33,017 nt of DNA from a virus. Below are positions 25,181-32,113 of the stretch, piece after piece. The DNA lies in IMG/VR virus record IMGVR_UViG_3300032282_000378, positions 1 to 33,017 of that record, one strand, 5' to 3'. Under the pieces are notes generated by a model. It was not told the origin of the DNA. It did no database searches and saw only the letters and a program-made list of their open reading frames with translations. Position 1 is the stretch's first letter; every line of letters begins with the position of its first letter. Position numbers and translations under genes: made by a program.

Positions 25181-28100
25181 ATGCCAAGTGTTAATGTTGC
25201 CGGAGTTGGTGTTGTAAATTTCCCTGACACCATGTCTCAGGGGGACATTATCAATGCGATTGAAAGAGACATTCTTCCGTCTATTAAAAAGCCTGAGCCG
25301 CCATCTAAAGAACGCACATTTGGCGAAGCATTTCAAGACATTGGCGCTGGCGTTGTTTCCGGTGTTGGTGCAATAACTCAGTTGCCAGGACAGTTGTATG
25401 GCCTAGCGACAGGGGACTTTGAGAAATCGGGTTTGCTTGGTGCTGGCCAGGATATTCAAAAGTATGCGCAAACACTCAAATCTCCTGGCTTGCTGGCTAT
25501 GGAGCAAGAGCGCGCACAAAAGATTCAACAGGCCGAAAAAGAAGGGCAGCTTGCAGCATTTAAGACTGCGTTTTCAGAAACCATATCTAATCCTGCGTTG
25601 CTTACCAATTTCTTGGCAGAGCAAGCCCCCAATCTTATTCCTGCTCTTGGCGCGGCAAGAATAGCTAGTGCTGCTGCTGGCGCGCGTGCCGGCATATCTG
25701 CTGCGGTGCGTACTGGCGCAGTTCAACAGGGCGCCGATATTGGTGCGCAAGCCTATGAAGAAGTTTATAACGAGCTTCGCAAGGCTGGCATCCCAGAGGA
25801 AGAGGCATCTGGCCGCGCACTAGGGTATGCCCGCGCTACTGGTGCAAGTGCTGCGGTTATTAGTCTGCTTGCACAAAGATTGCCGGGCGCAAAAGCTTTA
25901 GAAGAAACACTGGCTGGCGTGCAGGGTCCTGGTGGCAGGGCATTCGGCGCTTTGCGTGGCGCACTAGGTGAGACTGCCAGTGAGATTACAGAAGAAACAG
26001 GCGGGAAACTTGCGCAGAATCTTGCGCTTCAACAAATTAATCCTGAGTATGCACTAACAACTGGTCTTGGCCAGACTGCTGGTATGGCTGCTATTGGCGG
26101 TGTTGGTATGGGCGGTATCAGTGGCGCGTTACAGCGTCCTGCCACGCCAGGAGAAATTCCTCCCACCACCCCACCATCAGCATTTGCCGCTACCGGCGAA
26201 GAGCCAGAAGGACCAACTCCTATTCCTGGTGTGCCCGCGTTAGAAGCGCCAGAAGTCAGACCTCCAACCACTTTTGCGCCACCCACTTTACCGCCAGTTA
26301 TTGAGCCGCCTCCTGTTGAGCTTCCTCCAGTTGCAGCGCGTCCTGAAATGCCAGCATATACGCCGCCGCCAAAAGCAGTAGCTGATATGAAAAATTATTT
26401 TGTTGGCAAACCAGAAGATTTTGGGTTGTCTTTTGCTGCCATTCAGAACCGCGATAGATCTAAACCAGCATCCATTCAGCAGATGACTAGTATTGCGGCA
26501 GAGCCTGATTACAACCGTATCAGCGTATCCAGAGACTTTGGATCTGGCGCGCCAGTAGTTATATCAGATGTGGAATTAAATCCTGCGCAGATGGGTAAGG
26601 TTGATGTGGTATCCGCCTCTGATGGCACCAAGATACCAGTCCAGTATGCTGTCTTAGAAGCGGGCCAAATTACGCCATCTAATCTGGCCGATGGATCTGC
26701 TGTGCCGCAGTATGCCGATCCCGCATTTGCTGGCATCCGCCCTGTTGCTGGCAATGGCCGCGTAGCTGGATTGCAGAAAGCTTACGGGCAAGATACGGCG
26801 GGCGATTATGTTCAAAGTCTTATCAATGATCCTGCACACGGAATCTCGCCAGATGTAATTTCTGGCATGAAGAACCCTGTGCTTGTCAGAGTTATGCCAA
26901 AGTCTTCGCTTACCCCTGACATTGCAGATAAAGGTAATGTTGGCGGGCAATTGGGCATGTCGCCGACTGAGCAGGCAAAGATTGATATGGGCCGCTTTGA
27001 TCTAGCGGGCGTAGAGTTTCTTGCCGATGGCTCGCCTACACGCAAAACATTGCAGCAGTTTATTGCTGCTATGCCTAAAGAAGAACAAGCAGCCTTGCTA
27101 AATAAACAGGGTACGCCTAATCCTATGGCCAAGATCCGTCTGGCCAATGCGTTATTTGCGCGGGCGTATGCGAATGATGCGTTGATTGATCTGTATGCAG
27201 AAGCTACTGACGCAGAGGCGCAACAAATATTGCGCGGCATGGCTATTGCGGCGGCGCCTATGTCTGAATTGGAAGGCGCTGGTGACTATGACATTCGCAA
27301 GTATGTGGCCAAGGCAGCAGAGTTAGCGGTAAACGCACGCCGGCAAGGGACCGATCTGGCAACGTATGCGCAGCAGGGCGATCTTGAGATGGATCCGCTT
27401 ACTCAGCAAATTGTGCAAATGTTTGCTGCCAATAAGAACGCGCCGCGTCGCATTGGTGATGCGCTAACGGGATTGGCGCAAGAGGCCAACAAGGCAAGCA
27501 CAGAATCTAAGGGCGGCCCAGACTTGTTTGGTAACGCGCCAGTTGGCCGCTCTATACAAGATATATTTGATACGCTACGTAGTGAGCCTACAGCTAAGGC
27601 GCCAATAGTTGAGGAGGCGCCACCAACACCGCCGGCTAAGCCAGCTAAGCCTGAGCGCGTTGAGTTTGTTATTGATAAAGATCCTGCCGACATTGCCAAA
27701 GAAATTAAAGGCATGTCGCTACCTAAGCTTACGAAGTGGCTGATAGATAACGCACCTAATAGTGCGGCAAAAGCTATTGCTGAGAAGATGTACACGCGTA
27801 TTAAGGAGTTTGACCAGCGCGGCGTTCCTATGAGTATGCGTGTTATGAGCGGCGCAACTAGGTCAGCCAAGGCATTAGGAAAATCTAAAATGCAGTGGGG
27901 CGCTACAACTGGAATTAGTTTTAGGGTTTTGTTAAATGGTGCAAACGCGCAAGGAAAAGCAGATAGCAAGACAGGCACGGACTATGAAACCATCATGCAC
28001 GAACTACTGCATGTTTGCACTCAAGCGCAACTTCATATGTTGCCGCGCAATGCTCAAGAAGTTGTTGAGATGGAGAGGCTTCTTAAATTAATTAACGCGC

Positions 28101-31100
28101 AAATTAAATCCGATGTTGCGGCTAATGTTACGCATCCTTTTATTGAGAAGATGCAAAGAGTTAAATCTGCAAGTCCTAAATCATGGGATAAGTGGGGGCC
28201 GATGCGGGATATTGATGAGGTTTTGGCGTGGGGATTAACTGACCCAGAGTACCAAAGCTATATTGCAACTATCCGCGTAACACCTAAGCAAAGTGCATTT
28301 ACCAAATTTGCAGAGGTTCTGCGTAACTTGCTCGGCCTTGATCCAAAGTACCAAACCGCATTAGAGCAACTGGCCGCTATCTCTGAGGATATTCTTACTG
28401 AGGCTACTGTGGATGTGGCCGCCATTACTGAACGCTATGGCACATTTTTAGGTACAAAGCTTGGGCCACGACAAGCGCCACCAGGGGCAACGGTATTGCC
28501 TTCCGAGGGCGAAGTTGAGTCCGAGATGGAAATACCGGAGTTTATTCGTCGGGGGGCGGAGGGGGTTGCGAAGAAAGCAGCCGGCCAGCGCACTCCGCCA
28601 GAGACTGCATTCGAGGGCGTGCCAGAAGATCTGATGGCCAAGATCCGTCCGTCGTTTTACCCAGAAAAGAAAACTATCCTTGATAAGGTTGAGGCCAACA
28701 AGGATAGATTCTTTCAGCGCATGGCTCAAGGTATTGCCGATCAATACCGCACGATTAAAGACTACAGTTCTGAAGCCTACATGATGGCTCGACTATCTAA
28801 AACTATTGATGGCGCGTTAGAAGGTCTGATGTTCAATGGCCAAGTTAAGCTAACCGACGGGGCGCTGGATATTAAGTCTGGAACCAAAGGGTTGATCCAA
28901 GCGCTTGAGCCTGTAGGTACAGAGGTTGACCGTTATCAAATTTGGGTAGCATTGAGCCGTGATGCGGATCTTGTTCGCAGCGGCAAAATATCTTCATTCA
29001 ACAAAGAGCTTGTCCAGCGCCGCAATGAATTAGCCAAGGGCACTCTCAATGGTAAATCTCGTTTAGAGATATATGAGGGTGTGCGAAAGGACATGAACGC
29101 GCTTAACAAGTCAGTGCTGGATATCGCACTCAAGCAAGGTTTGATTGATAAGGAAGCGTATGCGCGGTTTGCTAGTGACATTAACTATATCCCGTTCTAT
29201 AAGGCTATGGAAGACGGTGATATTCAAGGAGCTGCAACTGCATCTGGCTTAGCAAATCAACACTTCTCCAAAGAATTAAAAGGCGGCGAGAAGCCATTTG
29301 GCGATCTAATGGAGAACACTCTTCGCAATTGGAGTCATATCCTTTCTGCGTCAATGAAGAATGCCGCCGCCGTTAAAACTGTTGAGGCTGCTGTAGACAT
29401 GGGCGCCGCGTTTCCTAACCTTAAGGTTGGTCTGGAGTGGCGTGATGGCAAGGTATATTCAACCAAGTCCGGCGAGATGGTTGGCGATGGATCTTTGAAA
29501 CCTGGATACACTACGTCTGGCAAAGGCATGGCCAAGGTAATGATGGATGGTAATGTGGCTTACTTTGAAGTAACAGACCCATTGTTACTGGATGCCATTA
29601 TGTCTATCGGCTATATGGGCCCTAAGTCTAAGTTCTTAGATGTGGCCAAAGACTTTAAGAATATATTGCAGCTAGGTGTTACGGTTTCGCCGGCATTTAA
29701 AGTGCGCAACTTGTTCCGCGACTCTATCTCTGCGATGGCTGTTAGCGATATGAAGTTAAACCCGTTTGCCAATATTGCTCGCGGCTGGGCGCTGTCCAAC
29801 AAGAATAACCCCGCGCATATCTCGGCGCTTGCTGGCGGCGCGATCTTTAACTTTGGCTCTGCGTATGAAGGCGATCAGTCCAAGCTGATTAAGCGCCTGC
29901 TAGAAATGGGCGTTAATGAAAGCAACATCTTAGATACGCAAGAAAAAATTAAAGCTGGCTTAGGCAAAACATGGCGTGCGTACCAAGAATTTGGCAATAA
30001 GTCGGAATCCGCTAACCGTATGGCGCTATATCAACAGATGCGCGACAAAGGGATGAGTCATCTTGAGGCATCTTTCTATGCCAGAGACTTGCTAGATTTC
30101 TCTATGCAGGGATCTTTCCCCGCATTCCGCATGGTCACGCAAGTAGTGCCGTTCTTAAATGCCCGCGTGCAGGGTCTTTATAAGCTTGGCAGGGACGGCA
30201 TTATCCCTACTTCACGGGTTATCTATAACTCTGTAACTGGCAAGCCTATAGAAGCTACAGACGCGCAGAAAGCTGCGCAGTTCTCTACCGTTACTGGCGC
30301 CGTCGTGCTGGCTTCCTTGGCCTTGTATATGGCGTTTAAGGATGATGATGAGTTTAAGAAGCGCGAACAGTGGGACCGCGATAACTTTTGGTGGTTCCGC
30401 CTGCCAGGTATGGAAGCGGCCATTCGGGTTCCTAAGCCATTTGAGATCGGCGCATTCGGCACGATGGCTGAACGCACGCTAGAACAAATCATTGACAGCG
30501 GGGCAGAGGGCAAGATATTCGAGCAGAGCTTCAAGCGCATGATGTCTGACACGTTTGCGTTGAATCCTACGCCACAGATGATTAAGCCACTGGTGGATCT
30601 GTACGCCAACAAGGACAGCTTTACGGGTGCGCCTATCGAGACTGCCGGCATGGAGCGGCTATCTAAGGCAGAACGTTACTCAGAAGCCACCAGCCCGCTC
30701 GCCAAGGCGTTATCGCAAGTTTCCAATGTCTTCTTACCAGAAGCAGCAGAAATGTCTCCTGTGCAGGCTGATTATGCCATCAAGTCTTACTTTGGCTGGC
30801 TGGGTGGCACTATCGCGGCAACGTCGCACTATGCCGTTATGCCGTTCTCTAAGGGGGCCTATCCTGACCATAACTGGGCGGAGACCGCATCCCTTGGTTT
30901 TGTGAAGTCTTTGCCCACTACGCAGTCCCAATACGTCACGGCCTTCTACGAGAACAACAAGCAGATCAGCGAAGCCTATGCGGATATGCGGCACTATGCG
31001 GAGTTAGGCCAAGCGGAAAAGGTGCAGGAGATCATTGAAAAAAAGGGCGATAAGATTGCGATGGCCAAGTTTTACGATAAGACAGCCAAAGATATGGCAA

Positions 31101-31243
31101 AAATCCGCAAGGCTATTCAAGTTATCACGCACGATGAAACCATGACTGGCGCGGAAAAGAAGGAAGAGATCGACCGGCTCAAGCTTATCATCGGGGATCT
31201 GGCAGAGCAGGCGGAGACTGCCAGAAAATCTATGCGTAAATAA
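25181..31243 (+). CDS. 2020-residue polyvalent internal/ejected protein (ParB-like, HExxH, LPD38-like)
   Basis: A giant protein and the last gene of the late operon. Residues about 40-320 are helical and Ala/Gly-rich with hydrophobic stretches. A Pro-rich linker spans about 325-400. About 485-620 looks like a DdrB/ParB-like domain (VLEAGQITPSN, GIRPVAGNGRVAGLQKAYG near 524). His940-Glu941-x-x-His944 (MHELLHVC) is a zincin motif, with Glu/Asp candidates downstream (DIDEVLAWGLTDPE). About 1490-1620 resembles large polyvalent domain 38 (VRNLFRDSISAMAVSD near 1512). A hydrophobic helix lies near 1704-1720 (VTGAVVLASLALYMAF). Such proteins are thought to enter the host with the DNA; targets are unknown. 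Confidence 0.75.
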   Translation: MPSVNVAGVGVVNFPDTMSQGDIINAIERDILPSIKKPEPPSKERTFGEAFQDIGAGVVSGVGAITQLPGQLYGLATGDFEKSGLLGAGQDIQKYAQTLKSPGLLAMEQERAQKIQQAEKEGQLAAFKTAFSETISNPALLTNFLAEQAPNLIPALGAARIASAAAGARAGISAAVRTGAVQQGADIGAQAYEEVYNELRKAGIPEEEASGRALGYARATGASAAVISLLAQRLPGAKALEETLAGVQGPGGRAFGALRGALGETASEITEETGGKLAQNLALQQINPEYALTTGLGQTAGMAAIGGVGMGGISGALQRPATPGEIPPTTPPSAFAATGEEPEGPTPIPGVPALEAPEVRPPTTFAPPTLPPVIEPPPVELPPVAARPEMPAYTPPPKAVADMKNYFVGKPEDFGLSFAAIQNRDRSKPASIQQMTSIAAEPDYNRISVSRDFGSGAPVVISDVELNPAQMGKVDVVSASDGTKIPVQYAVLEAGQITPSNLADGSAVPQYADPAFAGIRPVAGNGRVAGLQKAYGQDTAGDYVQSLINDPAHGISPDVISGMKNPVLVRVMPKSSLTPDIADKGNVGGQLGMSPTEQAKIDMGRFDLAGVEFLADGSPTRKTLQQFIAAMPKEEQAALLNKQGTPNPMAKIRLANALFARAYANDALIDLYAEATDAEAQQILRGMAIAAAPMSELEGAGDYDIRKYVAKAAELAVNARRQGTDLATYAQQGDLEMDPLTQQIVQMFAANKNAPRRIGDALTGLAQEANKASTESKGGPDLFGNAPVGRSIQDIFDTLRSEPTAKAPIVEEAPPTPPAKPAKPERVEFVIDKDPADIAKEIKGMSLPKLTKWLIDNAPNSAAKAIAEKMYTRIKEFDQRGVPMSMRVMSGATRSAKALGKSKMQWGATTGISFRVLLNGANAQGKADSKTGTDYETIMHELLHVCTQAQLHMLPRNAQEVVEMERLLKLINAQIKSDVAANVTHPFIEKMQRVKSASPKSWDKWGPMRDIDEVLAWGLTDPEYQSYIATIRVTPKQSAFTKFAEVLRNLLGLDPKYQTALEQLAAISEDILTEATVDVAAITERYGTFLGTKLGPRQAPPGATVLPSEGEVESEMEIPEFIRRGAEGVAKKAAGQRTPPETAFEGVPEDLMAKIRPSFYPEKKTILDKVEANKDRFFQRMAQGIADQYRTIKDYSSEAYMMARLSKTIDGALEGLMFNGQVKLTDGALDIKSGTKGLIQALEPVGTEVDRYQIWVALSRDADLVRSGKISSFNKELVQRRNELAKGTLNGKSRLEIYEGVRKDMNALNKSVLDIALKQGLIDKEAYARFASDINYIPFYKAMEDGDIQGAATASGLANQHFSKELKGGEKPFGDLMENTLRNWSHILSASMKNAAAVKTVEAAVDMGAAFPNLKVGLEWRDGKVYSTKSGEMVGDGSLKPGYTTSGKGMAKVMMDGNVAYFEVTDPLLLDAIMSIGYMGPKSKFLDVAKDFKNILQLGVTVSPAFKVRNLFRDSISAMAVSDMKLNPFANIARGWALSNKNNPAHISALAGGAIFNFGSAYEGDQSKLIKRLLEMGVNESNILDTQEKIKAGLGKTWRAYQEFGNKSESANRMALYQQMRDKGMSHLEASFYARDLLDFSMQGSFPAFRMVTQVVPFLNARVQGLYKLGRDGIIPTSRVIYNSVTGKPIEATDAQKAAQFSTVTGAVVLASLALYMAFKDDDEFKKREQWDRDNFWWFRLPGMEAAIRVPKPFEIGAFGTMAERTLEQIIDSGAEGKIFEQSFKRMMSDTFALNPTPQMIKPLVDLYANKDSFTGAPIETAGMERLSKAERYSEATSPLAKALSQVSNVFLPEAAEMSPVQADYAIKSYFGWLGGTIAATSHYAVMPFSKGAYPDHNWAETASLGFVKSLPTTQSQYVTAFYENNKQISEAYADMRHYAELGQAEKVQEIIEKKGDKIAMAKFYDKTAKDMAKIRKAIQVITHDETMTGAEKKEEIDRLKLIIGDLAEQAETARKSMRK

Positions 31244-31249
31244 TTTGAT

Positions 31250-31290
31250 AACTCAACTGTAGGGAAACCTACAGTTGAGTTACCTTTTCT
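31250..31290 (+). terminator. Intrinsic terminator of the late operon
   Basis: A perfect 14-bp stem, AACTCAACTGTAGG (31250-31263) with CCTACAGTTGAGTT (31268-31281), is closed by a GAAA tetraloop. TACCTTTTCT with a short T-run follows. It begins 6 nt after the polyvalent-protein stop codon, so it ends the late transcript. Confidence 0.85.
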
Positions 31291-31308: not shown

Positions 31309-31337
31309 TTGACAATAGGTTCCCCAAGGGTGATAAG
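31309..31337 (+). promoter_or_regulatory. Possible promoter for the structured RNA
   Basis: TTGACA at 31309-31314 is followed after 17 nt by GATAAG (31332-31337, four of six matches to TATAAT). Transcription would begin near 31344 and would omit the outer strand of the first long stem. The promoter and the full stem therefore cannot both belong to one short transcript. Readthrough from the late operon is the alternative. Confidence 0.3.
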
Positions 31338-31767
31338 CCCCGCCGTTGACCTACCGCAGGTCACGACTAGGGGTATCATCCTTGCCCGATAATCACAAAT
31401 TGGCTGATATTGCCAGTTTGCTATTTGCCGATTAAGTCGGCTATCCAGCATTCCCTTGGGGCAGCGATTCTTTCAACACAGAGTTTGTCTCACCACTGGC
31501 CTCTGTATCTATGACAGTCCCTCGCTGACAGGCTATCCGACTCGCACGGGGGTGTACCGCGGCCGATGTATTCTTAGATGGCAGCCCATGTAGGCCCACT
31601 TCTATCGTGATCTGTGACGGTCTCGGAAAGCAAAAAGCCCTTAAGGTTTGGCTCTCCGTGTATGGGCACGCTGTCCAGAAGGACTGAGAACCAAAGCTTA
31701 AGGGCTAAGGTTGTTTGTCGCTGCCCATACAGAGACAAGCGAATATTAGGACAAGTCCTATTTTTTT
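31319..31767 (+). ncRNA. Candidate large structured phage RNA (about 450 nt)
   Basis: No supportable gene lies here, but many stems do. 5' part: 31326-31335/31374-31383 (10 bp), 31338-31341/31370-31373, inner 31348-31352/31358-31362, 31397-31404/31412-31419, 31427-31431/31437-31441, and closing 31322-31325/31458-31461. Middle: 31462-31467/31522-31527 enclosing 31478-31483/31501-31506. 3' part: 31636-31645/31697-31706, extended by 31647-31651/31691-31695 and 31653-31656/31686-31689. Inside it are two hairpins, 31657-31660/31667-31670 and 31673-31676/31681-31684. Two stems contain G-T pairs valid only for a + strand RNA. The context (phage, next to a tRNA, before a U-tract) recalls GOLLD and ROOL RNAs, but I cannot identify it as either. 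Confidence 0.62.
31747..31767 (+). terminator. Intrinsic terminator at the 3' end of the structured RNA
   Basis: TAGGA (31747-31751) pairs with TCCTA (31756-31760) around CAAG, followed directly by seven T (31761-31767). The stem is short but the T-run is strong. It is placed just after the last predicted RNA stem and 10 nt before the convergent tRNA end. Confidence 0.6.
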
Positions 31768-31776
31768 GCAAGAGTT

Positions 31777-31859
31777 TGTTGGCGGCTGGAGTTGAACCAG
31801 CTACAGACGAGTGGGTTATCGTGTTTTCCCATGCCGCTCTTCCGTTGAGCTACACCAAC
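31777..31859 (-). tRNA. tRNA-like gene with aberrant anticodon arm
   Basis: Read on the minus strand, GTTGGTG (from 31859) pairs with CGCCAAC (ending 31778) in a 7-bp acceptor stem, with A31777 as discriminator. The D-arm is GCTC-AACGGAA-GAGC, and the T-arm is GCTGG-TTCAACT-CCAGC. The acceptor contains a T-G pair valid only on this strand. Between the D- and T-arms are 34 nt instead of the 23 typical of class I. Only TGGG/CCCA can pair there, leaving a 12-nt loop (AAAACACGATAA) and no 7-nt loop with U33. No anticodon can be assigned. No CCA is encoded. It is the only supported gene on the minus strand. Confidence 0.7.
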
Positions 31860-31864
31860 ACGAC

Positions 31865-31914
31865 TGAGGACTGCCTTGCAAGTAGGCACTAGTATCGGCG
31901 TACCACAATCCTCA
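31865..31914 (-). other. Stem just upstream of the tRNA-like gene
   Basis: On the minus strand TGAGGATTG (31914-31906) can pair with CAGTCCTCA (31873-31865), 9 bp with one T-G pair that is valid only on that strand. A smaller TGCCT/AGGCA hairpin competes with its inner base pairs. It lies 6 nt before the tRNA 5' end and may be part of the tRNA precursor. Confidence 0.4.
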
Positions 31915-31941
31915 TGCGTCTTGGTGCAAGGATTAATTTTA

Positions 31942-31961: not shown

Positions 31962-31969
31962 ATATATCC

Positions 31970-31999
31970 AAAAAAGAGGCGCATGGAGATGTGCGCCTC
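31970..31999 (-). terminator. Minus-strand terminator-like hairpin
   Basis: GAGGCGCA (31976-31983) and TGCGCCTC (31992-31999) form a perfect 8-bp stem with an 8-nt loop. Six A at 31970-31975 become a T-run after the stem on the minus strand, the pattern of an intrinsic terminator for transcription coming from the right. No minus-strand gene is visible to the right within this window. Confidence 0.55.
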
Positions 32000-32001
32000 A
32001 A

Positions 32002-32019
32002 ACTTCTCACCGGAGAAGT
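32002..32019. other. Second perfect hairpin, in an untranslated stretch
   Basis: ACTTCTC (32002-32008) pairs with GAGAAGT (32013-32019) around ACCG. It follows the previous hairpin by 2 nt. An AAGGAG-like sequence at about 32027-32032 follows, but no start codon or reading frame is found after it. The remainder, 32033-32110, holds only a short ACAAC-AG-GTTGT dyad (32083-32094). Confidence 0.45.
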
Positions 32020-32113
32020 ACCAACTGAAGGAGAGATTACACAGTAGCACAGGCCATTCCCAGGGGCAAGATTAAAACTTATACAACAGGTTGTTCCGGT
32101 ATGCAAATAACTG

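Follow-up and report, generated by a model that had tools for sequence, protein, structure and literature searches.

What does the virus record IMGVR_UViG_3300032282_000378 encode in the stretch behind its late gene, if not a protein? The window analyzed here is that whole 33-kb record (33,017 nucleotides), which is probably a fragment. Its late gene (25181-31243) encodes 2020 amino acids (aa), and the region 31319-31767, which begins past the stop codon of this gene, holds only short and overlapping open reading frames (ORFs) of 52 to 92 aa, none supportable as a gene; on this point, we agree with an initial annotation of the same DNA. That annotation proposed one large structured RNA, read from the + strand and ending in a U-tract terminator. 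We found that the window encodes a large, previously uncatalogued folded RNA on the minus strand. Thus, the proposal of a structured RNA is borne out by covariation, but that of a single element is not, as there are two modules, one with a terminator hairpin and one forming a core. That this is a structured RNA family of the minus strand is almost certain, and it very probably lies outside every described Rfam class. The RNA is a new class in the sense that it fits no described RNA family tested; orphan large phage RNAs are themselves a known category. The minus strand of the window carries, in order, a promoter-like site, a 5' module of ~105 nucleotides (nt), and a core of ~318 nt, the whole unit spanning ~430 nt:

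31743 to 31771, minus strand: sigma-70-like promoter, with -35 TTGCAA (31771->31766), a 17-nt spacer, and -10 TAATAT (31748->31743)
31632 to 31736, minus strand: 5' module, with hairpin 1 and then a long, intrinsic-terminator-like hairpin ending in UUUUU; 5' end placed from the -10 box
31722 to 31731, minus strand: kissing-loop strand A, UGUAUGGGCA, which pairs with A'
31659 to 31668, minus strand: kissing-loop strand A', UGCCCAUACA, located apically in the terminator hairpin
31311 to 31628, minus strand: core RNA, ~318 nt, with inferred ends; the best-conserved aligned part is 31620->31460

The late gene, used as a lead, yielded 80 relatives, and the RNA adjoins this gene in only one of them (locus L003). 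In many of the whole records behind the late-gene loci, the RNA was found at other positions, with 70 to 98% identity. Further members were gathered by pattern scans of IMG/VR. The core was matched by nhmmer in 136 loci, or ~124 distinct viral records once duplicate loci were removed, and covariance model R1 scores 143.5 bits on the window. All RNA-bearing records counted (44/44) have exactly one copy. Presence is patchy: in a set of 33 records, consisting of the window and 32 relatives where the DNA search had given little or nothing, five gave a match, one of them weak. DNA searches of 50,697 deposited phages uncovered one carrier only, MW202484 (Manatee Spring, circular, 41.8 kb), through a weak BLAST match that was confirmed by the covariance model at 62 bits. 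A hypothetical protein (UOF77725.1) is annotated across the RNA homologue of MW202484 (33625-33784, equivalent to L229 8043-8202) but probably does not correspond to a real gene. The stretches examined of related phages, cultured or deposited (Acidovorax AP1, Pseudomonas PS-1, Paracoccus Shpa, Achromobacter CF418P1, and two Manatee Spring genomes), did not contain the core, and the plasmid collection gave no match to the RNA. When 399 genomes from one bacterial order were searched with the covariance model, the only match was weak and shortened (33 bits). Four 18-mer pattern matches in genome contigs were judged to be chance, their alignment being confined to 18 to 24 matching bases. One further contig, L133 (IMGVR_UViG_2920412021_000002), ends inside RNA-like sequence (positions 1-43; 19-nt exact match, truncated model match of 10.9 bits) and may offer a pointer to a cultured host.

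Structure in the core was assessed by covariation. When column pairs of a sequence-only alignment (A2; 65 sequences) were scanned without bias for helices, helices with many compensated changes emerged; most of the exceptions were C-A or A-C, combinations that become G-U when the opposite strand is read. In minus-strand orientation (alignment A3; 64 sequences), the best helices are nearly perfect. Across 37 pairs, 91.6% of A3 cells are paired, compared to 70.6% in shuffles; sliding the partners by 1 to 3 columns lowers pairing to 32 to 48%, a control that favors the structure to a degree because the structure was picked with the alignment in view. Both sides have changed in 29 of the 37 pairs, and 487 cells are changed on both sides versus 139 in shuffles, although these counts are not readable as probabilities since the sequences are related. 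The covariation score is 0.587, against 0.191 for shuffles and at most 0.122 for slid controls. It is the size of the effect, together with the strand bias described below, that makes the structure persuasive. The core contains at least eight helices supported by covariation, and two of them interlock to form an H-type pseudoknot:

31536-31533 with 31518-31515, minus strand: core helix 6 (A3 columns 96-99/115-118), 100% paired, 4/4 pairs changed on both sides
31528-31523 (CAGCGA) with 31467-31462 (UCGCUG), minus strand: core helix 7 (A3 columns 105-110/173-178), 100% paired in A3, both sides changed in 4/6 pairs

Helices 1 and 2 also cross, though part of helix 2 is misaligned (79.7% paired); pairing in helix 5 is weak, at 68%. 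The two copies of the motif GGCTATCC that had been pointed out at 31439 and 31531 are both present. The copy at 31531 sits in a covarying pseudoknot helix, and conservation is poor where that at 31439 lies, so the repetition seems coincidental. The peripheral 3' stems of the core (31326-31383) gained no support from a crude comparison of own with mixed pairing; this includes the proposed stem 31326-31335/31374-31383, where the pairing within a sequence is no better than pairing mixed between sequences. A 3'-terminal terminator is not evident in most members; in MW202484, the core is shorter and a T-run follows it. Both the core (A3) and the 5' module (alignment A4, below) show compensatory changes in excess of controls. 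The initial annotation had made its RNA depend on covariation among homologues, and covariation is present, in favor of a minus-strand structure.

Folding energy cannot decide the strand, since both strands fold better than shuffles (z of -4.9 for the + strand and -3.6 for the minus strand). The minus strand was assigned because, when the alignments are so read, G-U cells far outnumber A-C cells: 50 versus 4 in the five best-aligned core helices and 72 versus 0 in the 5' module. This makes a + strand transcript that stops at the U-tract near 31767 highly improbable. The slightly better folding of the + strand and a local hairpin with a U-run at 31745-31767 speak for it, but these ratios show the two local + strand G-T pairs from which that strand had been deduced to be misleading. 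Moreover, TTTTTTTGCAA at 31761-31771, taken for the end of a terminator, corresponds to the minus-strand promoter region TTGCAA-17-TAATAT read in complement, and the TAGGACAAGTCCTA hairpin is absent from L003 and L083, where the promoter is kept; conservation thus extends to the minus-strand promoter but not to the U-run or the hairpin. We give essentially no credence to a DNA-level element, a protein gene, or chance folding, for which strong inverted repeats and the hypothetical protein annotated over the MW202484 homologue could be cited, against covariation that includes pseudoknots, a G-U bias on one strand, and the frequent non-triplet indels of the core alignments.

The 5' region ahead of the core has the same layout in most members: a promoter-like site is followed by a short leader that contains strand A and then by a long hairpin that carries strand A' in its loop and ends in a U-run. 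Several unrelated hairpin types occupy this position among members. The promoter-like site is supported by its conservation in place: relatives keep a candidate promoter at the same position (TTGCAA-17-TATACT in L003 and TTGCAT-17-TACACT in L098). The best promoter score reaches at least 9/12 in 48% of 54 modules, compared to 4.8% in shuffles, and the promoter-like sites of these modules lie mostly 11 to 15 nt ahead of strand A. The copy in the window itself scores just 8/12 and was missed by the strict scan.

Alignment A4 comprises 26 sequences of the window-type 5' module. In it, 99.6% of A/A' helix cells are paired, and 5 of 10 pairs have changed on both sides; for the terminator stem, the values are 100% and 7 of 20. 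Folded alone, the 5' module of the window has a minimum free energy (MFE) of -47.9 kcal/mol and presents A and A' in the apical parts of two hairpins (loops UAUGGG and CCCAUA), indicating a kissing-loop pair that could form within one molecule or between molecules. The longest stretch over which leader and loop are exactly complementary averages 8.1 nt over 91 distinct modules, versus 5.7 nt when the two come from different members, and a complement of at least 7 nt occurs in 78% of own modules versus 15% of mixed modules; errors of the automatic stem finder in some of the 91 lower the figure for own complementarity. The 5' modules of the window and L003 are only 71% identical though their cores are 97% identical, and in L003, A and A' have been replaced together by a still-complementary pair, GCGGCGGC/GCCGCCGC. 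A G+C-rich stem directly followed by a U-run is present in the 5' module of the 26 members, and judged by sequence, the second hairpin resembles an intrinsic terminator. In eight loci (L103, L105, L106, L107, L132, L191, L194, and L209), a same-strand gene of ~88 aa, with no Pfam match, lies between module and core. Five others (L154, L157, L204, L221, and L226) have long hairpin insertions there; these have tRNA-like arms (an acceptor-like stem and D-like and T-like hairpins), recalling the tRNAs in the GOLLD linker. Both kinds of insert were identified partly by eye.

Complementary loops of changing sequence are familiar from other small RNAs. The pRNA of phi29, about 105 to 120 nt long, has two mutually complementary loops whose sequences vary between phages. 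The 5' module is similar in its length of ~105 nt and its two complementary loops that vary between phages, and it differs in ending with an intrinsic-terminator-like stem ahead of a second RNA and in having no Rfam match. In one locus (L198), a terminase-like large subunit that is not evidently a phi29-type packaging ATPase is encoded beside the RNA. The C4/CI immunity RNAs of P1 and P4 and the copy-control RNAs of plasmids also combine changing complementary loops with transcription attenuation. By analogy with these, the small module could be an antisense-type specificity RNA whose loops set self apart from non-self between phages. Attenuation by RNA kissing is a known mechanism, and the loops do diverge fast yet stay complementary, even where the cores are nearly identical, as in the window and L003. 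However, both partners here reside in the same RNA, and no tyrosine integrase was found in 32 records, many of them fragments, making lysogenic immunity unlikely for most. We therefore consider this reading very doubtful.

The conserved core also invites comparison with the large phage RNAs. An Rfam scan of the window at gathering scores gave no match, and at E<=5 the sole match above its gathering score was a minus-strand tRNA at 31859->31777. Neither ARAGORN nor Rfam matched a tRNA or tmRNA over 31311-31736. The covariance model of GOLLD (RF02032) had no match in the window (E<=5) or in 14 relatives (E<=2), nor did ROOL in full Rfam scans of the same sequences. GOLLD was likewise found in 0 of 32 mostly RNA-bearing records, by a search that matched no control genome either. 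Membership in either class was rejected on these covariance-model results, in keeping with the initial annotation, which could match the element to neither and suggested that it may be new, as it probably is. A published description of this RNA was not found in the open-access literature searched, which covers the field in part.

The resemblance to GOLLD is one of kind: both are large phage RNAs that lie near tRNAs in some genomes, with loop pseudoknots, a conserved 3' part, a variable 5' part, and tRNA-like inserts in some members. GOLLD is often longer than 800 nt, with a conserved 3' half, whereas the core here is ~320 nt and even the whole unit ~430 nt, and the RNA here lies by early replication genes with a kissing-loop terminator module upstream. 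ROOL is an ornate RNA of phages and prophages that has several pseudoknots and is often near tRNA islands (PMC12286853). Our RNA shares the ornate, multiply pseudoknotted character and is smaller, with another genomic context. In setting, it may work most like GOLLD and ROOL, given its phage origin, the tRNAs nearby in some members, and its conserved and variable parts (PMC12286853).

GOLLD and ROOL assemble into homo-oligomeric cages (PMC12286853), which raises the possibility that the RNA here is likewise an ornate self-assembling RNA, with kissing loops that join molecules and phage-specific loop codes. Its phage-borne, multi-pseudoknotted nature, the conserved 3' and variable 5' parts as in GOLLD, and the same-strand upstream tRNAs of some loci are consistent with this, and complementary loops could pair between molecules. 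Kissing within one molecule fits equally well, though; the RNA is much shorter and unmatched to GOLLD and ROOL in sequence or structure, and same-strand tRNAs upstream of the RNA were called by ARAGORN in just 5 of 73 nonredundant loci. Self-assembly of this type is thus unlikely. Big phage RNA classes are few, and the best-studied, GOLLD and ROOL, are still without an assigned function. The present RNA adds a class with more than 100 members, a supported secondary structure, a pseudoknot, a clear strand, and a promoter-like site, as well as a module with lineage-specific kissing loops, and its sequences are short enough to make and test. Common to more than 100 uncultured phages, it joins a short list of orphan large phage RNAs.

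The position of the RNA in phage genomes bears on what it might do. Two neighboring elements flank it in the window:

31249 to 31282, strand unassigned: 15-bp hairpin separating the core from the late gene, + strand terminator-like by scan
31777 to 31859, minus strand: tRNA-like gene upstream of the RNA (RF00005, 40.8 bits, E 5e-7), not called by ARAGORN

The element had been placed at the end of the late region, but relatives carry it beside early DNA-replication genes, and the relation of the window copy to the late operon is simply one of convergence. For most relatives, the RNA stands at the front of what is, by analogy, an early operon, with a ParB-like protein, a DEAD-box helicase, and a Toprim primase downstream on the same strand. 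The ParB-like cluster (weak Pfam match) is downstream on the same strand in 20 of 21 members and the helicase cluster in 19 of 20, which suggests early timing. Upstream, on the opposite strand, are a PD-(D/E)XK nuclease (17 loci) and a Sak-type annealing protein (12/13). In MW202484, the RNA homologue is found in the rightward operon after cro, and the temperate phage PS-1 has a similar helicase-primase cassette after cro. In 11 of 50 loci, including the window, the nearest downstream ORF that reaches 200 aa is encoded on the other strand; in the window, only the 15-bp hairpin and the convergent late operon lie behind the core and there is no same-strand gene. This hairpin is present in L003, is matched in part in L083, and is plausibly a bidirectional terminator. 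In L003, too, no same-strand gene directly follows the core, only the convergent late gene. Late-gene relatives that lack the adjoining RNA mostly have convergent genes after the late gene, so the placement in the window is probably not ancestral.

A cis-acting role, in which the core would make elongating RNA polymerase pass terminators or the whole unit would serve as an attenuator of the replication genes, is favored chiefly by the early-operon position that the RNA has in most relatives. A precedent for the passing of terminators is HK022 put/EAR, leader RNAs of about 70 to 120 nt that head an operon and act on RNA polymerase. Such a leader would explain the same-strand ParB-like, helicase, and primase genes behind the RNA in most loci, the strong terminator-like stem directly downstream of the promoter, the single copy per genome, and the location of the MW202484 copy. 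Yet the likeness to put/EAR is one of working and of leader position only: no test indicated a relation, the core at ~320 nt is far larger than put, it is not always followed by genes, and it is placed after the very terminator that it would need to suppress. The next large ORF is on the opposite strand in the 11 loci noted above, and the window and L003 have no same-strand gene behind a core that is nonetheless 97% conserved between them. The adjacent late gene is only 86% identical in DNA, and a core that is better conserved than its coding neighbor, with no same-strand gene to act on, argues against a purely cis role. A cis-acting leader is a real though minority possibility.

The best explanation as a whole, to which we assign a probability of roughly 55%, is that of a minus-strand phage noncoding-RNA locus with the parts described above; our best guess at its working is an early, attenuator-controlled, stand-alone structural RNA. 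Host RNA polymerase would start the transcript early in infection, as we infer from gene context, and the kissing-loop hairpin would be a partial terminator (attenuator) at which some transcripts stop as a small RNA. Others are assumed to read through and make the core, which would fold and be trimmed to a stable RNA. The core would then have a host component as its target in trans, for which the ribosome and RNA polymerase are natural candidates. Action in trans is probable for the core in the window, as no same-strand gene lies behind it; a stand-alone, trans-acting RNA with an attenuator, taken as the full model, falls somewhat short of even odds. More tentatively, and with the odds well against it, the kissing loops may constitute a lineage-specific code by which copies of the RNA recognize themselves, for self-assembly or self-limiting attenuation, and the pseudoknotted core may act on host machinery early in infection.

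The surroundings of the RNA hold further elements. The tRNA-like gene upstream, whose nearness the initial annotation had rightly seen, has normal acceptor, D, and T arms and an enlarged anticodon arm; ARAGORN called no tRNA anywhere in the window. L003 and L083, although closely related loci, lack any match to this gene, so it looks like a recent insertion. Recurrent sub-threshold Rfam matches occur near the RNA locus in the window (31969-32036, minus strand), L099, L103, L106, and L107 (Betaproteobacteria_toxic_sRNA, 20 bits; anti-hemB, about 22 bits), each singly within chance. At ~31855-31925, the window contains a conserved, imperfect long hairpin, CCAACACGACTGAGGACTG...CAATCCTCATGCGTCTTGG, with a variable interior. 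Part of it is found in 25 loci (some duplicates), sometimes twice (L101 at 1207 and 1396; L163 at 3175 and 3406) and with identical mismatches, and it is possibly a further small RNA or a mobile hairpin.
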